DNA of 54,981 nucleotides from Natronomonas sp. Lineage in GTDB: Archaea; Halobacteriota; Halobacteria; Halobacteriales; Haloarculaceae. Both the position numbers and the translations under genes were made by a program. Of this stretch, positions 1 through 9,259 are shown one piece after another. The stretch is from contig NZ_JAQCNO010000028.1 in assembly GCF_028274965.1 (NCBI RefSeq), positions 1-54,981 of the forward strand, read 5' to 3'. The stretch's first letter is position 1. Each line of letters opens with the position of its first letter. The notes beneath the pieces were generated by a model, which saw nothing but the letters and a program-made list of their open reading frames with translations, did not search any database and had not been told where the DNA came from.

Positions 1-230
1 TGGCCGACGGTCGCGTACGGGCCGATCTCGACGCGTTCGTGGACGACCGCGTTGTCCTAGACGTTGGCCCCCTCGGCGAGTTCGATCGCCCCGTGGTCGC
101 CGCGGAGCGTCGCGTTCGGCCAGACGCTCGCCTCGGGGCCGACCGTCACGTCGCCGATGACGACCGCGGTCGGGTCGACGTACGCGCTGTCGTGGATCTC
201 CGGGATCGTGCCGTCGAAGCTGCGTATCAC
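1..230 (-). pseudogene. Gamma-carbonic anhydrase / hexapeptide acyltransferase-like gene, 5' part, broken by TAG
   Basis: Reading from a GTG at 230-228 gives a left-handed beta-helix (hexapeptide-repeat) start typical of gamma-carbonic anhydrase/PaaY-like proteins: an N-terminal GTIPEIHDSAYVDPTAVVIG, then GDVTVG, ATLRGDHGAIELAEGANV. Codon 58 (57-59) is TAG. The frame continues beyond it with DNAVVHERVEIGPYATVG up to the window edge, so homology clearly crosses the stop. In this family the position is usually Gln or a similar residue (…V-Q-D-N…), so a single CAG to TAG change explains it. A minus-strand TATA-like box at about 253-261 places the transcript start near the GTG, suggesting a leaderless mRNA. 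Probable family activity is a trimeric zinc enzyme or acyltransferase. It is either a recent pseudogene or a base-call error; the 3' half is outside the window. Confidence 0.7.
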
Positions 231-320
231 GCCGGAGGGTTTCTCGCCGCCGGAATTAGATCACCGCGGGTCGGGAGATCCACCGACGGTGACCGGACGG
301 TTCCGAGCGGCTACAGACAG

Positions 321-330
321 ATTTAAATAC
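321..330 (+). promoter_or_regulatory. TATA box of the leuA transcript
   Basis: The AT-rich stretch atttaaatac is isolated in GC-rich DNA and lies about 30 nt upstream of the ATG at 356. That spacing fits a start of transcription at or a few bases before that ATG, giving a (nearly) leaderless mRNA that begins with the short leader ORF rather than with leuA itself. Confidence 0.7.
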
Positions 331-355
331 GCGGCACGTCCCCACTTTACTTGCA

Positions 356-421
356 ATGACACAGCACGAGGGTGCGTCGGCTTCGCCGGCGGATCGAGTT
401 CTTCCAGGGCACACTAGATAG
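356..421 (+). CDS. Putative 21-residue leader ORF overlapping the leuA start
   Basis: ATG at 356-358 is the first start codon downstream of the TATA box and opens a 21-codon frame (MTQHEGASAS… ending RVLPGHTR) closed by TAG at 419-421. The GTG start of leuA (372) lies inside it in another frame, so the two overlap by 50 nt. A stem-loop with 7-bp arms (375-381 with 385-391, loop TTC, one T-G pair) begins just 3' of the leuA GTG. Translation of the leader would open this hairpin. Whether the peptide is made, and whether it regulates leuA, is inference. Confidence 0.4.
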   Translation: MTQHEGASASPADRVLPGHTR

Positions 422-1571
422 TACCTCAGAGATAAGTGAGGCCCGAATTTTCGACACAACGCTGCGCGACGGCGAACAGTCCCCCAGAACCTCGTTCTCC
501 TACGAGGACAAACGCGAGATCGCGTCGCTGCTCGACGACATGGGCACCCATGTCATCGAGGCCGGCTTCCCGGTGAACTCCGAGGCGGAGTTCGAGGCCG
601 TCCGGGACATCGCCGAAGCGACCGCCACCACGGTCTGTGGGCTCGCCCGCGTCGTGGACAAAGACATCGACGCCGCGTTGGATTCCGGCGTCGAGATGGT
701 GCACGTGTTCGCGTCCACCAGCGACGTGCAACTGCAGGATTCGATGCACGCCACGCGCCAGGAGGCCCTCGAGCGCTCCGTCGAGGCCGTCGAGCGCGTC
801 ACGGACGCCGGCGCGAGTTGTATGTTCTCGCCGATGGACGCCACGCGCACGGACGAACAGTTCCTGATCGACGTCATCGAGGCCGTCTCCGAGGCGGGGA
901 CGGACTGGATCAACATCCCCGACACGGTCGGCGTCGCGACGCCGCGGCGGTTCTACGAGATGATCAACACCGTCTGTGCGCACACCGACGCGGACGTCGA
1001 CGTGCACACGCACGACGACTTCGGGTTGGCGGCCGCGAACGCCCTGTCGGGGTACGAGGCGGGCGCGGCCCAATCGCAGGTCTCGGTCAACGGGATCGGC
1101 GAGCGGGCCGGCAACGCGGCCTACGAGGAGGTCGTCATGGCGCTGGAGTCGCTGTACGACGTGGACACGGGCGTCGATACGACCCGGATCACGGAGTTGG
1201 CCCGGATCGTTGAGGCCAAAAGCGACATCGCGGTGCCGGCGAACAAGCCGATCGTCGGCGATAACGCGTTCTCACACGAGTCCGGTATCCACGCCGCCGG
1301 CGTCATCGAGAACTCCGACACGTTCGAGCCCGGCGTGATGACGCCCGAGATGGTCGGTGCGACCCGGCAGTTGGTGTTGGGCAAACACACCGGGACCCAC
1401 TCGGTACAGGAGCGACTCGAGGAGGCGGGCTTCGAGCCGACGGAGGCCGAGGTCCGGGAGGTAACCCGCATGGTCAAAGACCGCGGGGCGCAAAAGGAGG
1501 AGATCACCTTCGAGTTGCTCAAGGAGTTCGCCCGCGAGGTGGGCGTCCAACGCGAGGAGGTTCGGATCTGA
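372..1571 (+). CDS. leuA: 2-isopropylmalate synthase (or citramalate synthase-type homologue)
   Basis: Condenses 2-oxoisovalerate (or, in citramalate synthase relatives, pyruvate) with acetyl-CoA, the first committed step of leucine synthesis. The 399-aa protein shows the DRE-TIM metallolyase signature TTLRDGEQSP (residues 29-38), the metal-binding HTHDD (H212, H214) and the conserved NGIGERAGN segment, then the two linker subdomains (GIHAAGV, LGKHTGTHSV). It stops there. The roughly 110-residue C-terminal regulatory (LeuA dimer) domain that mediates leucine feedback in longer enzymes is absent, so control may rest on gene expression. GTG 372 is the only start in frame after an upstream TGA and before the conserved FDTTLRD block. 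First gene of the leu-ilv cluster, 319 nt before ilvB. Confidence 0.9.
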   Translation: MRRLRRRIEFFQGTLDSTSEISEARIFDTTLRDGEQSPRTSFSYEDKREIASLLDDMGTHVIEAGFPVNSEAEFEAVRDIAEATATTVCGLARVVDKDIDAALDSGVEMVHVFASTSDVQLQDSMHATRQEALERSVEAVERVTDAGASCMFSPMDATRTDEQFLIDVIEAVSEAGTDWINIPDTVGVATPRRFYEMINTVCAHTDADVDVHTHDDFGLAAANALSGYEAGAAQSQVSVNGIGERAGNAAYEEVVMALESLYDVDTGVDTTRITELARIVEAKSDIAVPANKPIVGDNAFSHESGIHAAGVIENSDTFEPGVMTPEMVGATRQLVLGKHTGTHSVQERLEEAGFEPTEAEVREVTRMVKDRGAQKEEITFELLKEFAREVGVQREEVRI

Positions 1572-1667
1572 GAATGCCCGTTTCGGGCGTTCATCCCCGG
1601 AGTGAGCCGCCGGTGCACCGTCCTCAGGCGGGCGTCGGCGCGCGAGCGACGGCGCGGAACGGGAACG

Positions 1668-1675
1668 TTTATTTT
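1668..1675 (+). promoter_or_regulatory. TATA box of the ilvB transcript
   Basis: gtttatttt-type AT block in GC-rich DNA, centred about 26 nt upstream of the ATG at 1698. This is the spacing expected if transcription begins at that ATG, so the transcript would start directly with the leader ORF. ilvB itself starts 190 nt further on. Confidence 0.65.
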
Positions 1676-1679
1676 GCCC

Positions 1680-1696
1680 GACGGTACAGTACCGTC
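1680..1696. promoter_or_regulatory. Perfect 17-bp palindrome between TATA box and transcript start of the ilv operon
   Basis: GACGGTAC-A-GTACCGTC has two perfect 8-bp arms around one central base. It fills the gap between the TATA box and the leader ATG at 1698. A dimeric repressor bound here would block RNA polymerase recruitment or escape. The dyad and its placement are seen in the sequence; the operator role and any regulator (for example an Lrp-type protein) are inferred. Confidence 0.55.
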
Positions 1697-1697
1697 T

Positions 1698-1772
1698 ATG
1701 ACGACGGACGCGAGGGCCGAAACGGCGCGCGCGGACACCGTCGGCGTTGCGCTCGGTATCGTAGGGGCGTAG
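1698..1772 (+). CDS. Putative leaderless leader peptide of the ilv operon, rich in branched-chain codons
   Basis: A 24-codon ORF (MTTDARAETARADT followed by VGVALGIVGA and TAG) starts exactly where TATA spacing predicts the mRNA 5' end. Its last ten codons include three Val, one Leu and one Ile, the end products of the downstream pathway. These codons form the 5' arm of a strong hairpin (1754-1783) that extends past the stop codon. The arrangement resembles bacterial ilv/leu attenuators, though no U-tract follows the hairpin. No protein homology is claimed; this is a regulatory-ORF inference. Confidence 0.5.
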   Translation: MTTDARAETARADTVGVALGIVGA

Positions 1773-1783
1773 CCCCGATACCG
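1754..1783 (+). promoter_or_regulatory. Hairpin overlapping the end of the ilv leader ORF
   Basis: The 5' arm CGGTATC (1754-1760) plus GGGGC (1764-1768) pairs with GCCCC (1772-1776) plus GATACCG (1777-1783). This gives twelve base pairs, a 3-nt bulge GTA and a 3-nt loop. The leader stop codon begins in the loop. A ribosome that finishes the leader covers the 5' arm, and one stalled at the upstream Val codons does not. No T-run follows, so a simple intrinsic terminator is unlikely. Confidence 0.55.
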
Positions 1784-1843
1784 ACACCACACTCCTTCGA
1801 GGCGCGGATCGTACCGGACGCAGAGCAGCCCACAGGCAGAACA

Positions 1844-1894
1844 ATGCACACAGGAAACGTCGACCGACGGCATCGAACGGGAGGAACAGCATGA
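1844..1894 (+). CDS. Putative 16-residue ORF translationally coupled to ilvB
   Basis: ATG at 1844 opens MHTGNVDRRHRTGGTA, whose TGA overlaps the ilvB ATG as ATGA. The same coupling is used between most genes of this operon. The GGGAGGA purine block just before the overlap (1880-1886) could serve reinitiation. Existence as a translated ORF is inferred from the overlap only. Confidence 0.3.
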   Translation: MHTGNVDRRHRTGGTA

Positions 1895-3639
1895 GCGGAG
1901 AGCAGACGCAGGCGTCGAGCGAGACCGACATCGAGACCGAAACGGCGCCGAGAGAGGTCGAAACCGGGGCCGACGCGGTGGTTCGGTCCCTGGAGAACGC
2001 CGGCGTCGAGCACGTCTTCGGCGTCCAGGGCGGCGCGATCATGCCGGTGTACGACGCCCTGTACCACTCGGAGATCAGACACGTCACGATGGCCCACGAG
2101 CAGGGCGCGGCCCACGCCGCCGACGCCTACGGCATCGTCAGCGGCGATCCGGGCGTCTGCATGGCGACGTCGGGGCCCGGGGCGACGAACCTCGTTACGG
2201 GCATCGCCGACGCGAACATGGACTCGGACCCGGTCGTTGCGCTGACCGGACAGGTCCCGACGGAGTTCGTCGGCAACGACGCGTTCCAGGAAACCGACAC
2301 CATCGGCGTGACGGGCCCGGTGACGAAGGCGAACGTGTTCGCCGACGACTCCGATACGGTCGGCACCGACGTCGGGACGGCGTTCGCGCTGGCCGATCGC
2401 GGCCGGCAGGGGCCGACCCTCGTCGATCTCCCGAAGGACGTGACGAACGGCGACACCGAAACGACCCCCGGCGTGCCGGAGCTTCCGGACACGTACGATC
2501 CCCCGGAGACAGCCGACGCGGAGGCGGTGTCGGCGGCGGCCGAGGAACTCGTCCGGGCCGACCGGCCGGCCATCCTCGCCGGCGGCGGCGTGATCAAGGC
2601 GGAGGCGAGCGAGGCGCTTCGCTCGTTCGCCAAGGAGCACGAGATCCCGGTCATCACGACGATGCCGGGGACGGGCGCGTTCCCGGAGGACCACGAGCTC
2701 TCCCTGGAGATCGCCGGCATGCACGGCACCGGCTACGCGAACATGGCGATCACGGTGACCGACTGCCTGCTTGCGGTCGGCACGCGCTTCGACGACCGGC
2801 TGACGGGCGGCGTCGAGACGTTCGCGCCGGACGCACAGATCATCCATGTCGACATCGATCCCGCCGAGATCTCGAAGAACATCGAGGCCGATCACCCGCT
2901 CGTCGGCGACGCGAAGGCGGTCCTCGGGCAGCTCGCCGACGCGATGCCCGGGTCGCCCTCAACGGACGCGTGGCTCAAGCAGTGTGAGACCTGGAAAGAG
3001 GAGTACCCGATGGAGTACGCCGCCCCGGAGGACGAGCCGGTCAAGCCGCAGTACCTCGTCGAGCGGTTCGACGAGGCGACCGACGACGACACGATCGTCA
3101 CGACCGGCGTCGGCCAACACCAGATGTGGGCCTGGCAGTACTGGACCTGGAAGGTCCCCCGGACGTGGGTGACCTCGCACGGGCTGGGCGCGATGGGCTA
3201 CGGGCTCCCGTCGGCGATCGGCGCGAAGTTCGCCGCCCCGGAGCGCGACGTCGTCTGTTTCGACGGCGACGGCTCCTTTCTGATGACGTGTCAGGGGCTG
3301 TCGGTCGCCGTTCGGGAGAACCTCGACATCACCGTCGTCGTCCTCAACAACGACGCGATCGGGATGGTGAGACAGTGGCAGGACGCCTTCTTCGGCGAGC
3401 GACACATGGCCTCGGAGTACCCGTGGGTCCCCGAGTTCGACACGCTCGCGGAGGCGTTCGGCGCCCGCGGGTTCCGGATCGACACCTACGACGAGGTTGA
3501 CGAGGTCATCGAGGAAGCGATGGGCTACGACGGTCCGAGCGTCGTCGACGCGCACATCGACCCCGACGAGAACGTCTACCCGATGGTGCCGAGCGGCGGC
3601 GACAACGGGCTGTTCGCGCTGACGGAGGGCCAGCTATGA
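1891..3639 (+). CDS. ilvB: Acetolactate synthase, large (catalytic) subunit
   Basis: ThDP-dependent enzyme that condenses two pyruvates to 2-acetolactate, or pyruvate with 2-oxobutyrate, for Val/Leu and Ile synthesis. The 582-aa chain has an acidic N-terminal extension of about 30 residues, the N-terminal pyrimidine-binding domain with the activating glutamate E70 (AHEQGAAHAADAYG), a central FAD/DHS-like domain (FDDRLTGG), and the C-terminal pyrophosphate/Mg site GDGSF (from about residue 458) ending in NND. A GGGAGGA ribosome-binding block precedes the ATG. Its stop overlaps ilvN by ATGA. Expression is probably controlled by the palindrome and leader described upstream. Confidence 0.96.
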   Translation: MSGEQTQASSETDIETETAPREVETGADAVVRSLENAGVEHVFGVQGGAIMPVYDALYHSEIRHVTMAHEQGAAHAADAYGIVSGDPGVCMATSGPGATNLVTGIADANMDSDPVVALTGQVPTEFVGNDAFQETDTIGVTGPVTKANVFADDSDTVGTDVGTAFALADRGRQGPTLVDLPKDVTNGDTETTPGVPELPDTYDPPETADAEAVSAAAEELVRADRPAILAGGGVIKAEASEALRSFAKEHEIPVITTMPGTGAFPEDHELSLEIAGMHGTGYANMAITVTDCLLAVGTRFDDRLTGGVETFAPDAQIIHVDIDPAEISKNIEADHPLVGDAKAVLGQLADAMPGSPSTDAWLKQCETWKEEYPMEYAAPEDEPVKPQYLVERFDEATDDDTIVTTGVGQHQMWAWQYWTWKVPRTWVTSHGLGAMGYGLPSAIGAKFAAPERDVVCFDGDGSFLMTCQGLSVAVRENLDITVVVLNNDAIGMVRQWQDAFFGERHMASEYPWVPEFDTLAEAFGARGFRIDTYDEVDEVIEEAMGYDGPSVVDAHIDPDENVYPMVPSGGDNGLFALTEGQL

Positions 3640-4268
3640 GCCGGCGCGAGGAGGTCCAACGACAGGGGCTGAAGGGCCCGAGCCCGGAAGAGCGACGCCG
3701 ACCGATCGGCCGCCGCAACTCGCAGGGCATCCGGATCGACCCGGCGGTCGCGGCGGAGCCGGAGCCGCGGCGGACGACCATCTCGGCGTACGTCAAAAAC
3801 GAGCCCGGCGTGCTCGCGGGGGTCTCGGGGCTGTTTCACCGGCGCCAGTTCAACATCGAGTCGCTGACCGTCGGGCCGACGCAAAACGAGGGGTACTCGC
3901 GGATCACCCTCGTCGTCGAGGAGCCGGACCCCGGCATCGACCAGATCAAAAAGCAGCTGAACAAGCTCGTTCCGGTCGTTCACGTCAGGGAGCTCGACTC
4001 GGACCCGGTCGCCTGCGAACTCGTAATCCTGAAGATAGACGGCGACGAACCGGACAAGGTGCAGGCGATCACCGAGATGTACGACGGTCGGACCCTCGAT
4101 GCGGGCCCGGAGACGATCACGGTACAGATCACCGGCACCGAGGGCAAGATCGACGACGCGATCGACGCCTACGAGCAGTTCAACATCCGCGAGATCGCCC
4201 GGACCGGCCAGGCGGCGCTGGCGCGCGGCGCGGAGGAGACGGCGCGGGTCGACGAGAAACACACATAG
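3636..4268 (+). CDS. ilvN: Acetolactate synthase, small (regulatory) subunit
   Basis: Regulatory partner of IlvB that binds valine through ACT domains. It is 210 aa, longer than the usual bacterial form of about 160 aa, because of a basic N-terminal extension of about 45 residues (RREEVQRQGLKGPSPEERRR). The ACT domain follows (TTISAYVKNEPGVLAGVSGL, then FNIESLTVG with the typical conserved G and NIESL), and a second C-terminal ALS_ss_C-like half begins near DSDPVACELVILKI. It overlaps ilvB by ATGA and lies 6 nt before ilvC. Confidence 0.95.
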   Translation: MSRREEVQRQGLKGPSPEERRRPIGRRNSQGIRIDPAVAAEPEPRRTTISAYVKNEPGVLAGVSGLFHRRQFNIESLTVGPTQNEGYSRITLVVEEPDPGIDQIKKQLNKLVPVVHVRELDSDPVACELVILKIDGDEPDKVQAITEMYDGRTLDAGPETITVQITGTEGKIDDAIDAYEQFNIREIARTGQAALARGAEETARVDEKHT

Positions 4269-4274
4269 CGAACA

Positions 4275-5273
<999 letters not shown>

Positions 5274-5275
5274 CG

Positions 5276-5548
5276 ATGACCGAACGGCCGGACACGCTCG
5301 GCGACCTGAGCCACACCAACCCCTACACGGGGGCCGTCTTCGGCGACACGCAGACGTACGGCCGCGGGCGGACGGTCGCGGCCGACGGCGGCCGGGAGGC
5401 CCACGAGGAACCCGGCGGCGGGGCCGAAACGGACGGGGAGGCCCAATGGGAGTCCGAGACAGAGACAGAAACGCTCGCCGACGTCGAGCACGCCGGCGGG
5501 GACGGCAACGCCTCACAGCGGACGTTCGATCGCGGTGGCGGCCGATGA
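5276..5548 (+). CDS. Small conserved protein of unknown function between ilvC and leuC
   Basis: A 90-aa ORF that starts 2 nt after the ilvC stop and ends in an ATGA overlap with leuC, so it is firmly in the operon. The N-terminal third is patterned like a real protein (DTLGDLSHTNPYTGAVFGDT, TYGRGRTVAADGGRE). The rest is low-complexity and acidic (ETDGEAQ…ESETETETLADVEHAG) and probably disordered. No enzyme motif or Cys pair is visible. From memory, related haloarchaeal operons carry a similar small ORF at this position, which would point to a role tied to isopropylmalate isomerase, but this is unproven. An in-frame GTG at 5270 is an alternative start. Confidence 0.7.
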   Translation: MTERPDTLGDLSHTNPYTGAVFGDTQTYGRGRTVAADGGREAHEEPGGGAETDGEAQWESETETETLADVEHAGGDGNASQRTFDRGGGR

Positions 5549-7011
5549 GCGACGGAACGCTGTACGACAAGGTCTGGGAGAAACACAAGGTGACGGAGCT
5601 GCCGAACGGGCAGGATCAGCTGTTCGTCGGGCTGCATCTCGTCCACGAGGTCACGAGCCCGCAGGCGTTCGGGATGCTCGAGGAGCGCGATCTCGACGTC
5701 GCCTTCCCCGATCGGACCTTCGCGACGACCGACCACGTCGTCCCGACGGAGGCCGACAAGCGACAGCGGCCGTTTCCGGACCGGGAGGCCGAGGAGATGC
5801 TCTCGGCGCTCGAACGCAACACCGCCGACAGCGGGATCACCTTCTTCGGGTTCGACTCGGGCAAACAGGGGATCACGCACGTCGTCGCGCCCGAACTCGG
5901 GCTCTCACAGCCTGGGATGACGGTCGCCTGCGGCGACAGCCACACCGCGACCCACGGCGCGTTCGGATCGATCGGGATCGGCATCGGGACCTCGCAGATC
6001 CGCGACGTCCTGGCGACCGGGTGTATCGCGGCTGACAAACAGAAGGTCCGGCGGATAAACGTCGAGGGAACCCTCGGCGAGGGCGTCTACGCGAAGGACG
6101 TCATCCTCAAGATCATCCAGGACCTCGGCGTCGACGGCGGCGTCGGGCACGTTTATGAGTACGGTGGCTCCGCGATCGACGCTCTCGACATGGAGGGCCG
6201 CCTCGCGGTCTGTAACATGTCGATCGAGGGCGGCGCCCGCGCGGGGTACATCAACCCCGATGAGACGACCTACGAGTACCTCCGCGGGCGGGAGTACGTC
6301 CCGGAGGGCGAGGCTTTCGAGGAGCGGAAGGCGTACTGGGAGTCGATCGCCTCGGACGCCGGCGCGGAGTACGACGACGTCGTCACCATCGACGCCGACG
6401 GGATCGACCCCCTCGTCACCTGGGGCATAAACCCCGGACAGGTCATCGAGATCGGCGACGCGGTCCCCTCGCCGGCGGACTTCGACGCCCGGACCGACAG
6501 GGAGGCCGCCGAGCGGGCACTCAAGCACATGGACATCGAACCCGGACAGTCCATGCTCGGGTACGACGTCGACGTGGCCTTCCTCGGCACCTGCACGAAC
6601 GGTCGCGTGTCCGACTTCGAGGCGGCGGCCCGCGTCCTCGAGGGCAACACGATCGACGGCGACGTGCGCGCGCTCGCCGTCCCCGGGTCCGAGACCGTCC
6701 GCGCCGAGTGCGAGCGCCGCGGGATCGACGAGACGTTCATCAACGCCGGCTTCCAGTGGCGGCGCGCCGGCTGTTCGATGTGTCTCGCGATGAACGACGA
6801 CGCGTTGGAGGGCGACGAGGTGTGCGCCTCCTCGTCGAACCGGAACTTCGTCGGCCGGCAGGGCTCGAAGGACGGCAGGACCGTCCTCATGAACCCCGCG
6901 ATGGTCGCCGCCGCGGCGATCGAGGGGGCCGTGACGGACGCCCGCGAGTATCTCGACGACGACCCGACCGGCTCCGCCGGCGGCGTCGGCGACGGGGAGG
7001 TCGCGGACTGA
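5545..7011 (+). CDS. leuC: 3-isopropylmalate dehydratase, large subunit
   Basis: Aconitase-family [4Fe-4S] enzyme that, with LeuD, isomerises 2-isopropylmalate to 3-isopropylmalate. 488 aa from the ATG at 5545. The open frame extends upstream but that part overlaps the preceding small gene. Conserved features are VACGDSHTATHGAFG, the first cluster cysteine in GTCTNGR (C350) and the pair in AGCSMC (C410, C413), followed by SSSNRNFVGRQG. The C-terminal tail DDPTGSAGGVGDGEVAD is an acidic haloarchaeal extension. The stop codon overlaps the leuD start by one base (TGATG). Confidence 0.96.
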   Translation: MSDGTLYDKVWEKHKVTELPNGQDQLFVGLHLVHEVTSPQAFGMLEERDLDVAFPDRTFATTDHVVPTEADKRQRPFPDREAEEMLSALERNTADSGITFFGFDSGKQGITHVVAPELGLSQPGMTVACGDSHTATHGAFGSIGIGIGTSQIRDVLATGCIAADKQKVRRINVEGTLGEGVYAKDVILKIIQDLGVDGGVGHVYEYGGSAIDALDMEGRLAVCNMSIEGGARAGYINPDETTYEYLRGREYVPEGEAFEERKAYWESIASDAGAEYDDVVTIDADGIDPLVTWGINPGQVIEIGDAVPSPADFDARTDREAAERALKHMDIEPGQSMLGYDVDVAFLGTCTNGRVSDFEAAARVLEGNTIDGDVRALAVPGSETVRAECERRGIDETFINAGFQWRRAGCSMCLAMNDDALEGDEVCASSSNRNFVGRQGSKDGRTVLMNPAMVAAAAIEGAVTDAREYLDDDPTGSAGGVGDGEVAD

Positions 7012-7613
7012 TGGCCGACGAACAGCACATCACCGAGGTCTCCGGCACCGGCGTTCCGATCCCGGGCGACGACATCGACACCGACCAGATCCTCCCGGCG
7101 CGGTTCATGAAGGAGGTCACCTTCGACAACATGGCCGACTACCTCTTTTATGACGCGCGGCGGGACGACGACGGCGAGCGCAACGAGCACCCGCTGAACC
7201 GCTTCGAGGGCGCGTCGATCGCGGTCGTCAACTCCAACTTCGGCTGTGGCTCCTCGCGGGAGCACGCGCCCCAGGCGATGATGCGGTGGGGCGTCGACGG
7301 CGTCGTCGGCGAGTCCTACGCCGAGATCTTCCGGGACAACTGCAAGTCGATCGGCATCCCGGCGGTGACGACGGACCACGAGACGGTGACGGAACTGCAG
7401 GCGTGGATCGAGGACAACCCCGACGGCGACGTCGAGATCGACGTCGAGGGCGAGACCGTCAGCTACGGCGGGCGGACGATCGACGTCGACATCACCGACG
7501 CGATGCAGGAGGCGCTCGTCGAGGGGATCTGGGACACGACGACGCTCATGTACTCGAACATGAGCAAAGTCGAGACGACCGCGGCGTCGCTGCCGTACGT
7601 CGAGAACGCCTGA
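7011..7613 (+). CDS. leuD: 3-isopropylmalate dehydratase, small subunit
   Basis: Swivel-domain partner of LeuC. 200 aa from ATG 7011. It contains the substrate-recognition region [13 protein letters not shown] and the conserved [14 protein letters not shown] loop, with the [15 protein letters not shown] block behind it. It starts within the TGATG overlap with leuC, so the two subunits are translationally coupled. It is followed by 82 nt without a gene before leuB. Confidence 0.96.
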
Positions 7614-7695
7614 GAGCGACGGCCGGATCGGGCGGCGCTGTGGCGTCGACGCGACACACCGACATGCTCTTTTCGGCTCCTCGCGGAGACGGGGT

Positions 7696-8676
7696 ATGAG
7701 CGAGGAGATCGCGGTCATTCCAGGCGACGGGATCGGACGGGAAGTCGTGCCGGCGGCGCTCGAGGTCCTCGAGGCGCTGGATCTCGGCTTCGAGTTCCGG
7801 GAGGGGGTCGCGGGCGATCGCGTCCTCGAATCGCGAGGGGAGGCGCTTCCGGAGGAGACCTACGACCTCGCCGCGGAGGCGGACGCGACGCTTTTCGGGG
7901 CCGCCGGCGAGACGGCGGCCGACGTGATCCTCCCGCTTCGGGAGGCGGTCGGCTCCTTTGCGAACGTCCGTCCCGCTCGGGCGTACCCCGGCGTCGACTC
8001 GGTGCGACCGGAGACGGATCTCGTCTTCGTCCGGGAGAACACCGAGGGCGTCTACGCCGGCATCGAAAGCGAAATCGCCGACGGCGTCACGACGCTGACC
8101 CGCGTCATCACTGACTCGGCCTCCCGGAAGATCGCGGAGTTCGGGTTCGAGTACGCCGAGGCGAACGGCTACGACGACGTGACGGTCGCACACAAGGCGA
8201 ACGTGATGCGGACGACCGACGGGCAGTTCCTCGACAGCGTCGCAACGGTCGCGGAGGCGGGCGGCTACGAGTACGACGAGGCGCTGATGGACGCGCTCGC
8301 GATGCATCTCGTGCTTCGCCCCGAATCGTACGGCGTCATCGTCTGTCCGAACCTCGCCGGCGACGTGCTGTCGGATCTGGCCGCCGGGCTCGTCGGCGGT
8401 CTCGGGCTGCTCCCGAGCGCCAACGTCGGCGAGGACAACGCCCTGTTCGAACCCGTCCACGGCTCGGCCCCGGACATCGCGGGCGAGGGGATCGCAAACC
8501 CCGCGGCGACCGTGCTTTCGGCGGCGATGTTGCTCGAGCATCTCGGGTACGACGCGGCCGCGGCGACGGTGCGAGATGCCGTCGAGACGGTCCTCGCGGA
8601 GGGGCCGCGGACGCCGGACCTCGGCGGCGACGCGTCGACGTCGGCGGTCACCGAGGCGATCGTTGAGCGGCTGTGA
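7696..8676 (+). CDS. leuB: 3-isopropylmalate dehydrogenase
   Basis: Oxidatively decarboxylates 3-isopropylmalate to 2-oxoisocaproate, the last enzyme of this cluster before transamination. 326 aa of the beta-decarboxylating dehydrogenase family: [14 protein letters not shown] at the N-terminus, [14 protein letters not shown], the catalytic [13 protein letters not shown] with Lys, the metal site DALAMHLV and [18 protein letters not shown], then [18 protein letters not shown]. The 82-nt gap before it contains a weak ctctttt block, so a separate promoter is possible. It ends directly against the convergent gene at 8677. Confidence 0.95.
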
Positions 8677-9129
8677 TCACTCCTCGGCGGCCGTCCGCCT
8701 GACGTCCTCCCAGCGCCCGTCGGCCTCGAGGCTGGCCTGGAGCTCGTCGGCGTACGCCGAGACGAGCCGCTCGGCCTCCGAGAGCTTCTTCTCGTCGACC
8801 TCAGGGCCCGAGTCGCTGCCGTTTCCGAACCCGAGGGCGTCGACGATCCCGTCGAGGAGACCGCCGCCGGAGTCCGGGTCCCCGCCGGGGGTGCCCATCG
8901 GGCCCATCTCCGAGACCTTCTCGATCTCGGGCATCATCGACCGGAGTTCGGACGTGTCGGCGACGAGCGCCGCCGCCTCCTCCTTGTCGGGGTTTTCGAT
9001 TTCGAACTCGATCGCCGTCATGATGAGCCCCCACTCCTGGCGGGAGAACTGCGAGTCGTCGATGCGGGGGGAGAACTCCTCGTCGACGGTCATCCGGTCG
9101 CCGACGATCATGTCCTGCCAGTCGGTCAT
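8677..9129 (-). CDS. DUF5799-like haloarchaeal conserved protein
   Basis: 150-aa soluble protein with a conserved N-terminal half (DWQDMIVGDRMTVDEEF, FSRQEWGLIMTAIEFEIENP), a Gly/Pro/Met-rich linker (MGPMGTPGGDPDSGGGL) and a charged C-terminal helix (EKKLSEAERLVSAYADELQ). This matches the haloarchaea-restricted family I recall as DUF5799; no function is known. A minus-strand TATA (tctataaga, about 9154-9162) lies about 28 nt upstream of the ATG, so the mRNA is probably leaderless. Its stop directly abuts leuB. Confidence 0.75.
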   Translation of the reverse strand: MTDWQDMIVGDRMTVDEEFSPRIDDSQFSRQEWGLIMTAIEFEIENPDKEEAAALVADTSELRSMMPEIEKVSEMGPMGTPGGDPDSGGGLLDGIVDALGFGNGSDSGPEVDEKKLSEAERLVSAYADELQASLEADGRWEDVRRTAAEE

Positions 9130-9259
9130 AGAGGTAGTAGGGCCCCGGTGTTCTTATAGACCGGCGACCGGTCGGCGTCACAGGGGGCCGGGCAGTCGGA
9201 AAAACAGAGCCAGAGAGATGAAAAGGCGGGCGAACGCAGACGGGATCGCCCACACCGTC

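Follow-up and report, generated by a model that had tools for sequence, protein, structure and literature searches.

A conserved leader with putative control codons precedes ilvB in haloarchaea and has likely counterparts before other genes

In haloarchaea, the gene ilvB, which encodes the large subunit of acetolactate synthase, is preceded by a short leader that is real, conserved across the haloarchaeal order and not the product of chance. Judged by comparison of sequences, this is very probably a regulatory leader of an attenuation-like kind, ribosome-mediated, codon-specific and carried on a leaderless transcript. With somewhat less assurance, we regard it as a probable member of a haloarchaeal regulon of leaderless, codon-reading leaders. 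These would read Ile-Val or Val (codon GTA) before ilvB and valS, Ile (ATT) before second copies of ilvB, Phe before pheS, Trp before a second type of trpS and perhaps Leu in leuA, by way of a +1 frameshift at a CUU codon. Such a regulon would represent the first ribosome-mediated attenuation in archaea, and it would operate without an intrinsic terminator.

Organization of the ilvB leader

The window, a stretch of 54,981 nucleotides from Natronomonas sp., carries the leader between leuA (372-1571), its upstream neighbour, and ilvB, the presumed target, with all elements of the leader on the forward strand. The product of ilvB (1891-3639, forward strand) was identified by the family model TIGR00118 (694 bits, for a cut-off of 538). 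The gene overlaps by ATGA with ilvN (3636-4268, forward strand), which encodes the small subunit (NF008864 and TIGR00119, both above cut-off) and is the next gene of the presumed ilvB operon. A TATA-like box, TTTATTTT (1668-1675), is located 30 nt 5' of ATG 1698, which opens the leader ORF uORF1 (1698-1772, 24 codons; MTTDARAETARADTVGVALGIVGA followed by a stop). The mRNA probably starts at or beside this ATG, which would make uORF1 leaderless.

The C-terminus of uORF1 reads Ile-Val-Gly-Ala-TAG, and the codons that we regard as control codons are the Ile codon ATC and the Val codon GTA at 1758-1763. Two hairpins are predicted in this region. Hairpin 1 (1702-1743) lies within uORF1 and has perfect arms, CGACGG (1702-1707) and CCGTCG (1738-1743), as found by script; RNAfold places them in a slightly different register. 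Hairpin 2 consists in the window of an inner stem of 5 bp (GGGGC 1764-1768 with GCCCC 1772-1776) and an outer stem of 7 bp (CGGTATC 1754-1760 with GATACCG 1777-1783), separated by the Val codon GTA (1761-1763), which forms a bulge. Its core, GGGGC-GTA-GCCCC, spans positions 1764-1776, and the uORF1 stop codon TAG (1770-1772) begins in the 3-nt loop. An untranslated spacer (1784-1843), in which the longest T run is 2, separates hairpin 2 from a second mini-ORF, uORF2 (1844-1894; MHTGNVDRRHRTGGTA followed by a stop), whose TGA (1892-1894) overlaps the ilvB start as ATGA. Re-reading the sequence bore out the coordinates that an earlier note on this DNA had given for the leader ORF, the hairpin and the second mini-ORF.

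Folding of the segment 1698-1800 gave a z score of -2.2, with 5 of 200 shuffled sequences folding equally well. For the longer segment 1698-1894, the fold stands out less from the shuffles (z = -1.6; 15 of 200 equally good). Because single-sequence folding only moderately beats shuffles, the case rests on comparison with other genomes.

Conservation of the leader in the haloarchaeal order

We compiled an even sample of the order comprising 69 genomes that are at least 90% complete, of which 67 had an ilvB match at the cut-off. Among the 69 ilvB places found, 68 were counted, and the second copy in genome G009 (L025) was read by eye instead. The leader was searched by a script that required an ATG sharing the frame of GTAGGGG and a stop no more than 24 nt away. 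It was detected in 64 of the 68 ilvB upstream regions, compared with 3 of 6800 Markov-shuffled controls and 4 of 68 when the reverse strand of the same regions was scanned. The earlier note had made its proposal depend on the leader being found upstream of ilvB in relatives, and the proposal withstands this comparison. Adding two by-eye readings raises the count to 66 of 68. Among the regions missed by the script, G117 keeps GTA with a different stem and G118, a second ilvB copy, has ATT in place of GTA; in G079 and G081 (families f9 and f11), no leader was visible in the 450 nt upstream of ilvB.

In the genus of the window, 17 of 20 ilvB loci show the complete leader with its hairpin. One of the remaining loci has a partial leader (L022), one is cut by a contig end (L017) and one shows no leader within 320 nt (L019). 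A scan of named genomes returned mostly bacteria and seven further haloarchaeal loci (L300-L306), which were read by eye: the leader was seen in six of them, with its stop beyond the stem in L300, and was not visible in the 330 nt inspected at L302. The second-copy ilvB at L024 is preceded by just 65 nt of upstream sequence.

The leaders vary in their details. The 64 detected by script end in TAG (48), TGA (9) or TAA (7), and the gap between GTA and the stop amounts to two codons in 34 leaders and three in 30. That the architecture is kept despite differing stop codons and loop lengths counts in favour of a regulatory leader. In the 61 leader peptides compared, there is hardly any conservation among the first 15-20 residues, while the terminal codons and the hairpin are retained. 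Apart from the promoter, the codons ATT/ATC GTA and the hairpin GTA-GGGG..stop..CCCC, little is conserved among the leaders.

Control codons and RNA structure

In order to assess the choice of codon, we selected strict cases in which the promoter box, the ORF, the stop and CCCC were required and the codon before GGGG was left free. This codon was GTA in 58 of 59 cases and ATT in the one other, a second ilvB copy. The codon preceding GTA in the 64 leaders is ATT (45), ATC (18) or CTC (1). Counted over four window genes, GTA accounts for 4 of 135 Val codons and ATT for 1 of 64 Ile codons; the codons retained in the leader are thus ones seldom used in these genes. The earlier note had pointed to Val, Leu and Ile codons leading into the hairpin and forming its 5' arm. 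An Ile-Val core, with Val above all, emerges from the comparison, and Leu does not show up as a control codon.

Hairpin 2 is predicted to enclose the stop codon in all 64 ilvB leaders, with a mean z score of -3.0. Its conserved element is GTA followed by GGGG(C/T), the stop and CCCC. The GTA codon takes part in the pairing in many relatives, where its partner is a TAC or TAT farther downstream. The 12-bp hairpin that the earlier note had described at 1754-1783 is present in the window, but its outer 7 bp are not the conserved part: among leaders folded individually, the outer 7-bp stem was seen in the window only. The note had also proposed looking for conserved leader codons and covarying stem pairs. 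The codons are indeed kept, but the core of hairpin 2 gives little covariation, as its pairs are near-invariant.

Hairpin 1 was judged by shuffle tests only, because misalignment made its covariation unusable in an automatic alignment of two families. In 70 of 74 leaders, the region running from the ATG up to GTA scores better in folding than the average of its shuffled versions (mean z -1.64), and the 3' arm of hairpin 1 mostly lies some 10-25 nt ahead of the GTA codon. Perfect stems of at least 6 were found in a fraction of 0.716 of the leaders and 0.425 of the shuffles, which is a modest excess. RNAalifold, applied to five groups, recovered hairpin 2 and parts of hairpin 1, and no consistent alternative pairing. 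A long-range pairing of the codons preceding GTA with uORF2, obtained with RNAalifold within the genus, was rejected, as some genomes fit it and others fail by eye. Scanning positions 1-9200 of the window and eight related loci with Rfam cmscan returned only unrelated matches below threshold. No covariance model, of the T-box or of another Rfam family, matched above threshold.

Taken together, the codons kept at the end of uORF1, the enclosure of the stop in 64 of 64 leaders, the near-fixed distance to the promoter and the recurrence of leaders with cognate codons before other genes argue strongly for sensing of Ile/Val by the ilvB leader. The earlier note had recognized here the layout of ribosome-stalling attenuation. 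Its sensing half is strongly supported by comparison, and the outputs that it had considered, through translation or factor-dependent termination, are candidates.

Promoter, spacer and second mini-ORF

Promoter statistics were calculated on 61 of the 64 leaders. In the 61 aligned ilvB leaders, A+T content peaks at positions -32 to -27 of the leader ATG, and A is found at -37/-36. This is about the place where the TATA box and BRE of an archaeal promoter would be expected for a leaderless transcript.

The earlier note had pointed out that no U-tract follows the hairpin, which is right in the window and applies equally to 64 relatives. Within the 60 nt that follow the hairpin, T runs reach a length of 5 at most, and a run of at least 6 occurs in 0 of 64. 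The missing U-tract makes an intrinsic terminator unlikely. Read by eye, the spacer (1784-1843 in the window) and its counterparts in relatives retain two elements in several families, a patch of pyrimidines similar to ACTTCTC and a motif resembling GTTCGCATCG.

A uORF2 of at least 9 codons, ending with NTGA (ATGA or GTGA) at the ilvB start, was found in 47 of 62 eligible upstream regions, for a control value of 0.114; its length ranges from 9 to 46 codons. The second mini-ORF reported at 1844-1894, with its ATGA overlap with ilvB, is thus confirmed in the window and has equivalents in relatives. Gene pairs with an ATGA overlap are described as strictly coupled in their translation in H. volcanii (Huber 2019, PMC6728339).

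Leaders before other genes

We scanned 293 genomes with short DNA patterns derived from the leader. The pattern GTAGGGGCN(2-14)TAGCCCC matched in 136 of the 293 genomes, and its reversed control in about 65. Spacing was of four bases and kept the frame in all but five of the matches listed. Many genomes contain two matches, the second of which precedes valS; two of these second-site valS genes scored above the NCBIfam cut-off and the rest were judged by their translated start. Thirty pattern loci were taken for identification of the downstream gene: 26 lie before ilvB according to tblastn, or 27 of 30 with L059 added, one lies before a valS-like start (L084) and two have another spacing (L058 and L076). 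The pattern GGGGCNNNNTAGCCCC gave 22 matches in 14 genomes, compared with 16 matches for its reversed control. Judged by location or by the translated start, twelve are at ilvB and seven at valS; two (L125 and L126) were judged to be chance matches, and the match in contig 1 of G249 was left untraced. As the reversed controls also match, short DNA patterns alone are not specific.

When valS was located by its family model in the even sample, a leader of either form was found in 57 of 69 cases. The GTA-GGGG form accounts for 23 of 69 and a short ORF with GTA-GTA for 34, and 12 have neither; G044 was counted as GTA-GGGG though its stop lies farther on, and G146 was counted as GTA-GTA. In the GTA-GGGG class, the hairpin encloses the stop in 20 of 22 leaders. 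The GTA-GTA ORFs are 7-13 codons long (33 measured), and the candidate hairpin of this class was rejected, none being consistent over 34 leaders (mean z +0.54). The hairpin is therefore not a universal part of these leaders. The valS gene of the window's genome (L221) has an 11-codon ORF, MSATRSVVRGA followed by a stop, which contains GTA-GTA; a TATA-like box lies about 30 nt upstream of this ORF.

Second copies of ilvB carry Ile codons (tandem ATT, as in IIGIIGIIGA) before the same type of hairpin. The leader endings read by eye are IIGIIGIIGAPQ (L023), SIIGASY (L025) and IIAIIAIIGVS (L206), each followed by a stop. From the codons present, the second copies thus represent a switch from Val to Ile.

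A map of transcription start sites in H. volcanii contains a uORF of 26 aa before pheS (Babski 2016, PMC4983044, Table 2) and one of 23 aa before a tryptophan--tRNA ligase gene (same source), both similar to the leaders described here. We therefore examined pheS and trpS. A mini-ORF with a run of Phe codons, typically GFGFF(F), precedes pheS in 14 of 19 genomes (L380-L398) and is absent in 5 of 19, including all three tested genomes of the window's genus. The trpS genes scored were the five whose match spans the greater part of the family, and 12 long genes of the archaeal type were only read by eye. All five second-type trpS genes (L399-L403) are preceded by a mini-ORF encoding WRW or WRWW. 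Its Trp codons lie within a hairpin, two stem pairs of which are changed on both sides. Counted from the nearest start, the leaders are 25-29 aa long for pheS and 19-27 aa for the second trpS.

Reading 220-230 nt upstream by eye revealed no leader before ileS (0 of 20), hisS (0 of 19, leaving out a second hisS piece of G000, L451) or the archaeal-type leuS (0 of 3). A common rule for all branched-chain synthetases is ruled out by the results for ileS and archaeal-type leuS. The archaeal leuS model at E 1e-150 matched in just 3 of 19 genomes, which suggests that the other genomes carry another type of LeuS. The leaders share one order of elements: a mini-ORF that appears leaderless and has cognate codons towards its end comes first, followed by an untranslated spacer and the gene; trpS is an exception, its cognate codons being within the mini-ORF.

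Alternative explanations

An arrest peptide of the TnaC type, in which the nascent Ile-Val-Gly-Ala and not the codon would stall the ribosome on a metabolite, is suggested by the C-terminal I-V-G-A/V kept across the order, and a stall could occur at the stop inside the hairpin. However, a peptide sensor would not need the synonymous choice that is kept (GTA, and ATT over ATC). Moreover, the peptide changes from one class to another: leaders of the second valS class end with V-V-R encoded with GTA-GTA, so that the codon is kept and the peptide is not, second ilvB copies use ATT-ATT, with both codon and peptide altered, and the pheS and second-trpS leaders bear their own cognate residues. We therefore consider an arrest peptide unlikely. 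We give still less credit to a pure RNA element (riboswitch, T-box-like element or protein-binding hairpin) in which the reading frame would be incidental. The 3' arm is conserved beyond the stop, showing that conservation is in part at the RNA level, but the frame from ATG to stop and the distance to the promoter are kept in 61-64 very different leaders that use three different stop codons. The stem is also short, and the Rfam matches of the window stretch and of eight relatives are sub-threshold and unrelated.

Small proteins are common in haloarchaea (PMC4983044), and uORF1 might be a functional microprotein placed next to ilvB by chance. This would hardly account for N-terminal 15-20 residues that are barely kept, unlike the last codons and the hairpin, or for the same ending occurring before valS behind a different N-terminus, and it appears highly improbable. 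The moderate score of the window fold relative to shuffles would, taken alone, agree with a chance association of an ORF and a hairpin in GC-rich DNA; the probability of this is negligible, as it is already refuted by the conservation (64 of 68 upstream regions, versus 3 of 6800 shuffled).

Proposed mechanism of the codon-reading leader

For the ribosome-mediated, codon-specific leader that we favour, we propose the following sequence of events. The ribosome would translate uORF1 straight from the 5' end of the mRNA. A shortage of Ile-tRNA, or in the first place of Val-tRNA, would make it pause at ATC-GTA. In this position it would occupy the 5' arm of hairpin 2 and be placed on, or close to, the 3' arm of hairpin 1. 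The pause would block formation of hairpin 2, and ilvBN would be expressed. When Val-tRNA is plentiful, the ribosome would translate a further two codons (in relatives, two or three) and leave at the stop. Hairpin 2 would then close, the spacer would be free of ribosomes and expression would drop. In this scheme we infer translation, stalling, the direction of control and the output step. A waiting ribosome would correspond to the ON state, since the genes concerned make valine or charge its tRNA; bacterial leaders provide the comparison.

Within this explanation, the most likely output, which we put forward tentatively, is factor-dependent premature transcription termination by FttA/aCPSF1. 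Termination in the ribosome-free spacer is favoured because it would suit every class of leader, even those that lack a hairpin. Lowered initiation at uORF2, to which ilvB would be coupled via ATGA, is considered because the NTGA overlap is conserved, and appears nearly as likely an output. The rest of the probability goes to mRNA decay.

Relation to known regulatory systems

The bacterial ilv, trp and pheST operons are controlled by ribosome-mediated transcription attenuation. The haloarchaeal leaders resemble these systems in having a short leader ORF, cognate codons, adjacent hairpins and targets in biosynthesis or tRNA charging by synthetases, and the run of Phe codons before pheS recalls attenuation of the pheST type. 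In contrast to the bacterial systems, they have a TATA promoter and a start that appears leaderless, and they lack both a U-tract terminator and a proven antiterminator; the stop lies in the hairpin loop, a second ORF overlaps the gene start, and the control region mostly consists of one rare GTA after ATT/ATC and not of a codon run. Attenuation of ilvBNC in Corynebacterium serves as a comparison case (PMC10272879, PMC11857589). The leaders would work on the same principle as ribosome-mediated attenuation in bacteria. Nevertheless, we do not file the leaders as members of this bacterial family, because the intrinsic terminator, which is defining there, is absent.

Leader peptides of the tnaC / mgtL type act together with Rho-dependent termination. 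Similarly, a stalled ribosome in the haloarchaeal leader would mask RNA near the stop, and an intrinsic terminator would not be needed. To our knowledge, archaea are devoid of Rho, and FttA/aCPSF1 is a candidate that would have to take its part. The bacterial scheme cannot simply be copied, as archaea combine this lack of Rho with leaderless mRNAs and a eukaryote-like RNA polymerase. T-box riboswitches regulate aminoacyl-tRNA synthetase and amino-acid genes, that is, the same class of targets, presumably in response to the same signal, uncharged tRNA. In contrast, the haloarchaeal leader apparently reads the tRNA through a translated codon and has no Rfam match above threshold. Stalled-ribosome sensors of this kind are known from bacteria, and we know of no report of one from archaea.

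The ATGA overlap of uORF2 and ilvB is also reminiscent of the gene pairs described for termination-reinitiation (PMC6728339), which makes coupling a candidate here; unlike in these pairs, ilvB has as its upstream partner a mini-ORF, 9-46 codons in length. The literature searched, whose coverage mostly excludes subscription journals, yielded no report of these leaders. The uORFs before pheS and tryptophan--tRNA ligase of H. volcanii are already in print (PMC4983044). The section of that paper on uORFs mentions neither cognate codons nor ilvB or valS, and the string 'attenuat' occurs 0 times in its main text. We found no published account of the leaders of ilvB and valS, of the match between codon and gene, or of the hairpin whose loop holds a stop. 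Whether archaeal translation controls premature termination, and via which factor, can now be tested, and Haloferax volcanii has genetics suited to such a test.

A candidate frameshift in leuA

At the start of leuA in the window (356-421), a leaderless-looking ATG ORF, MTQHEGASASPADRVLPGHTR followed by a stop, enters a conserved block of CGA/CGG, GTT CTT C[CG]A. The LeuA sequence (FFQGTLDST..RIFDTTLRDG) continues in the +1 frame relative to this upstream ORF. No paper on a leuA frameshift was found in the literature searched. We compared 26 leuA loci, namely the window, L260-L279, L300, L301, L303, L304 and L306. In 18 of them, the LeuA frame has no ATG, GTG or TTG before FF; a start in this frame is present in the window (GTG at 372) and, at varying places, in seven other loci. 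From its sequence, leuA looks like a gene with a +1 programmed frameshift. As CTT is a Leu codon, leucine sensing at leuA is possible.
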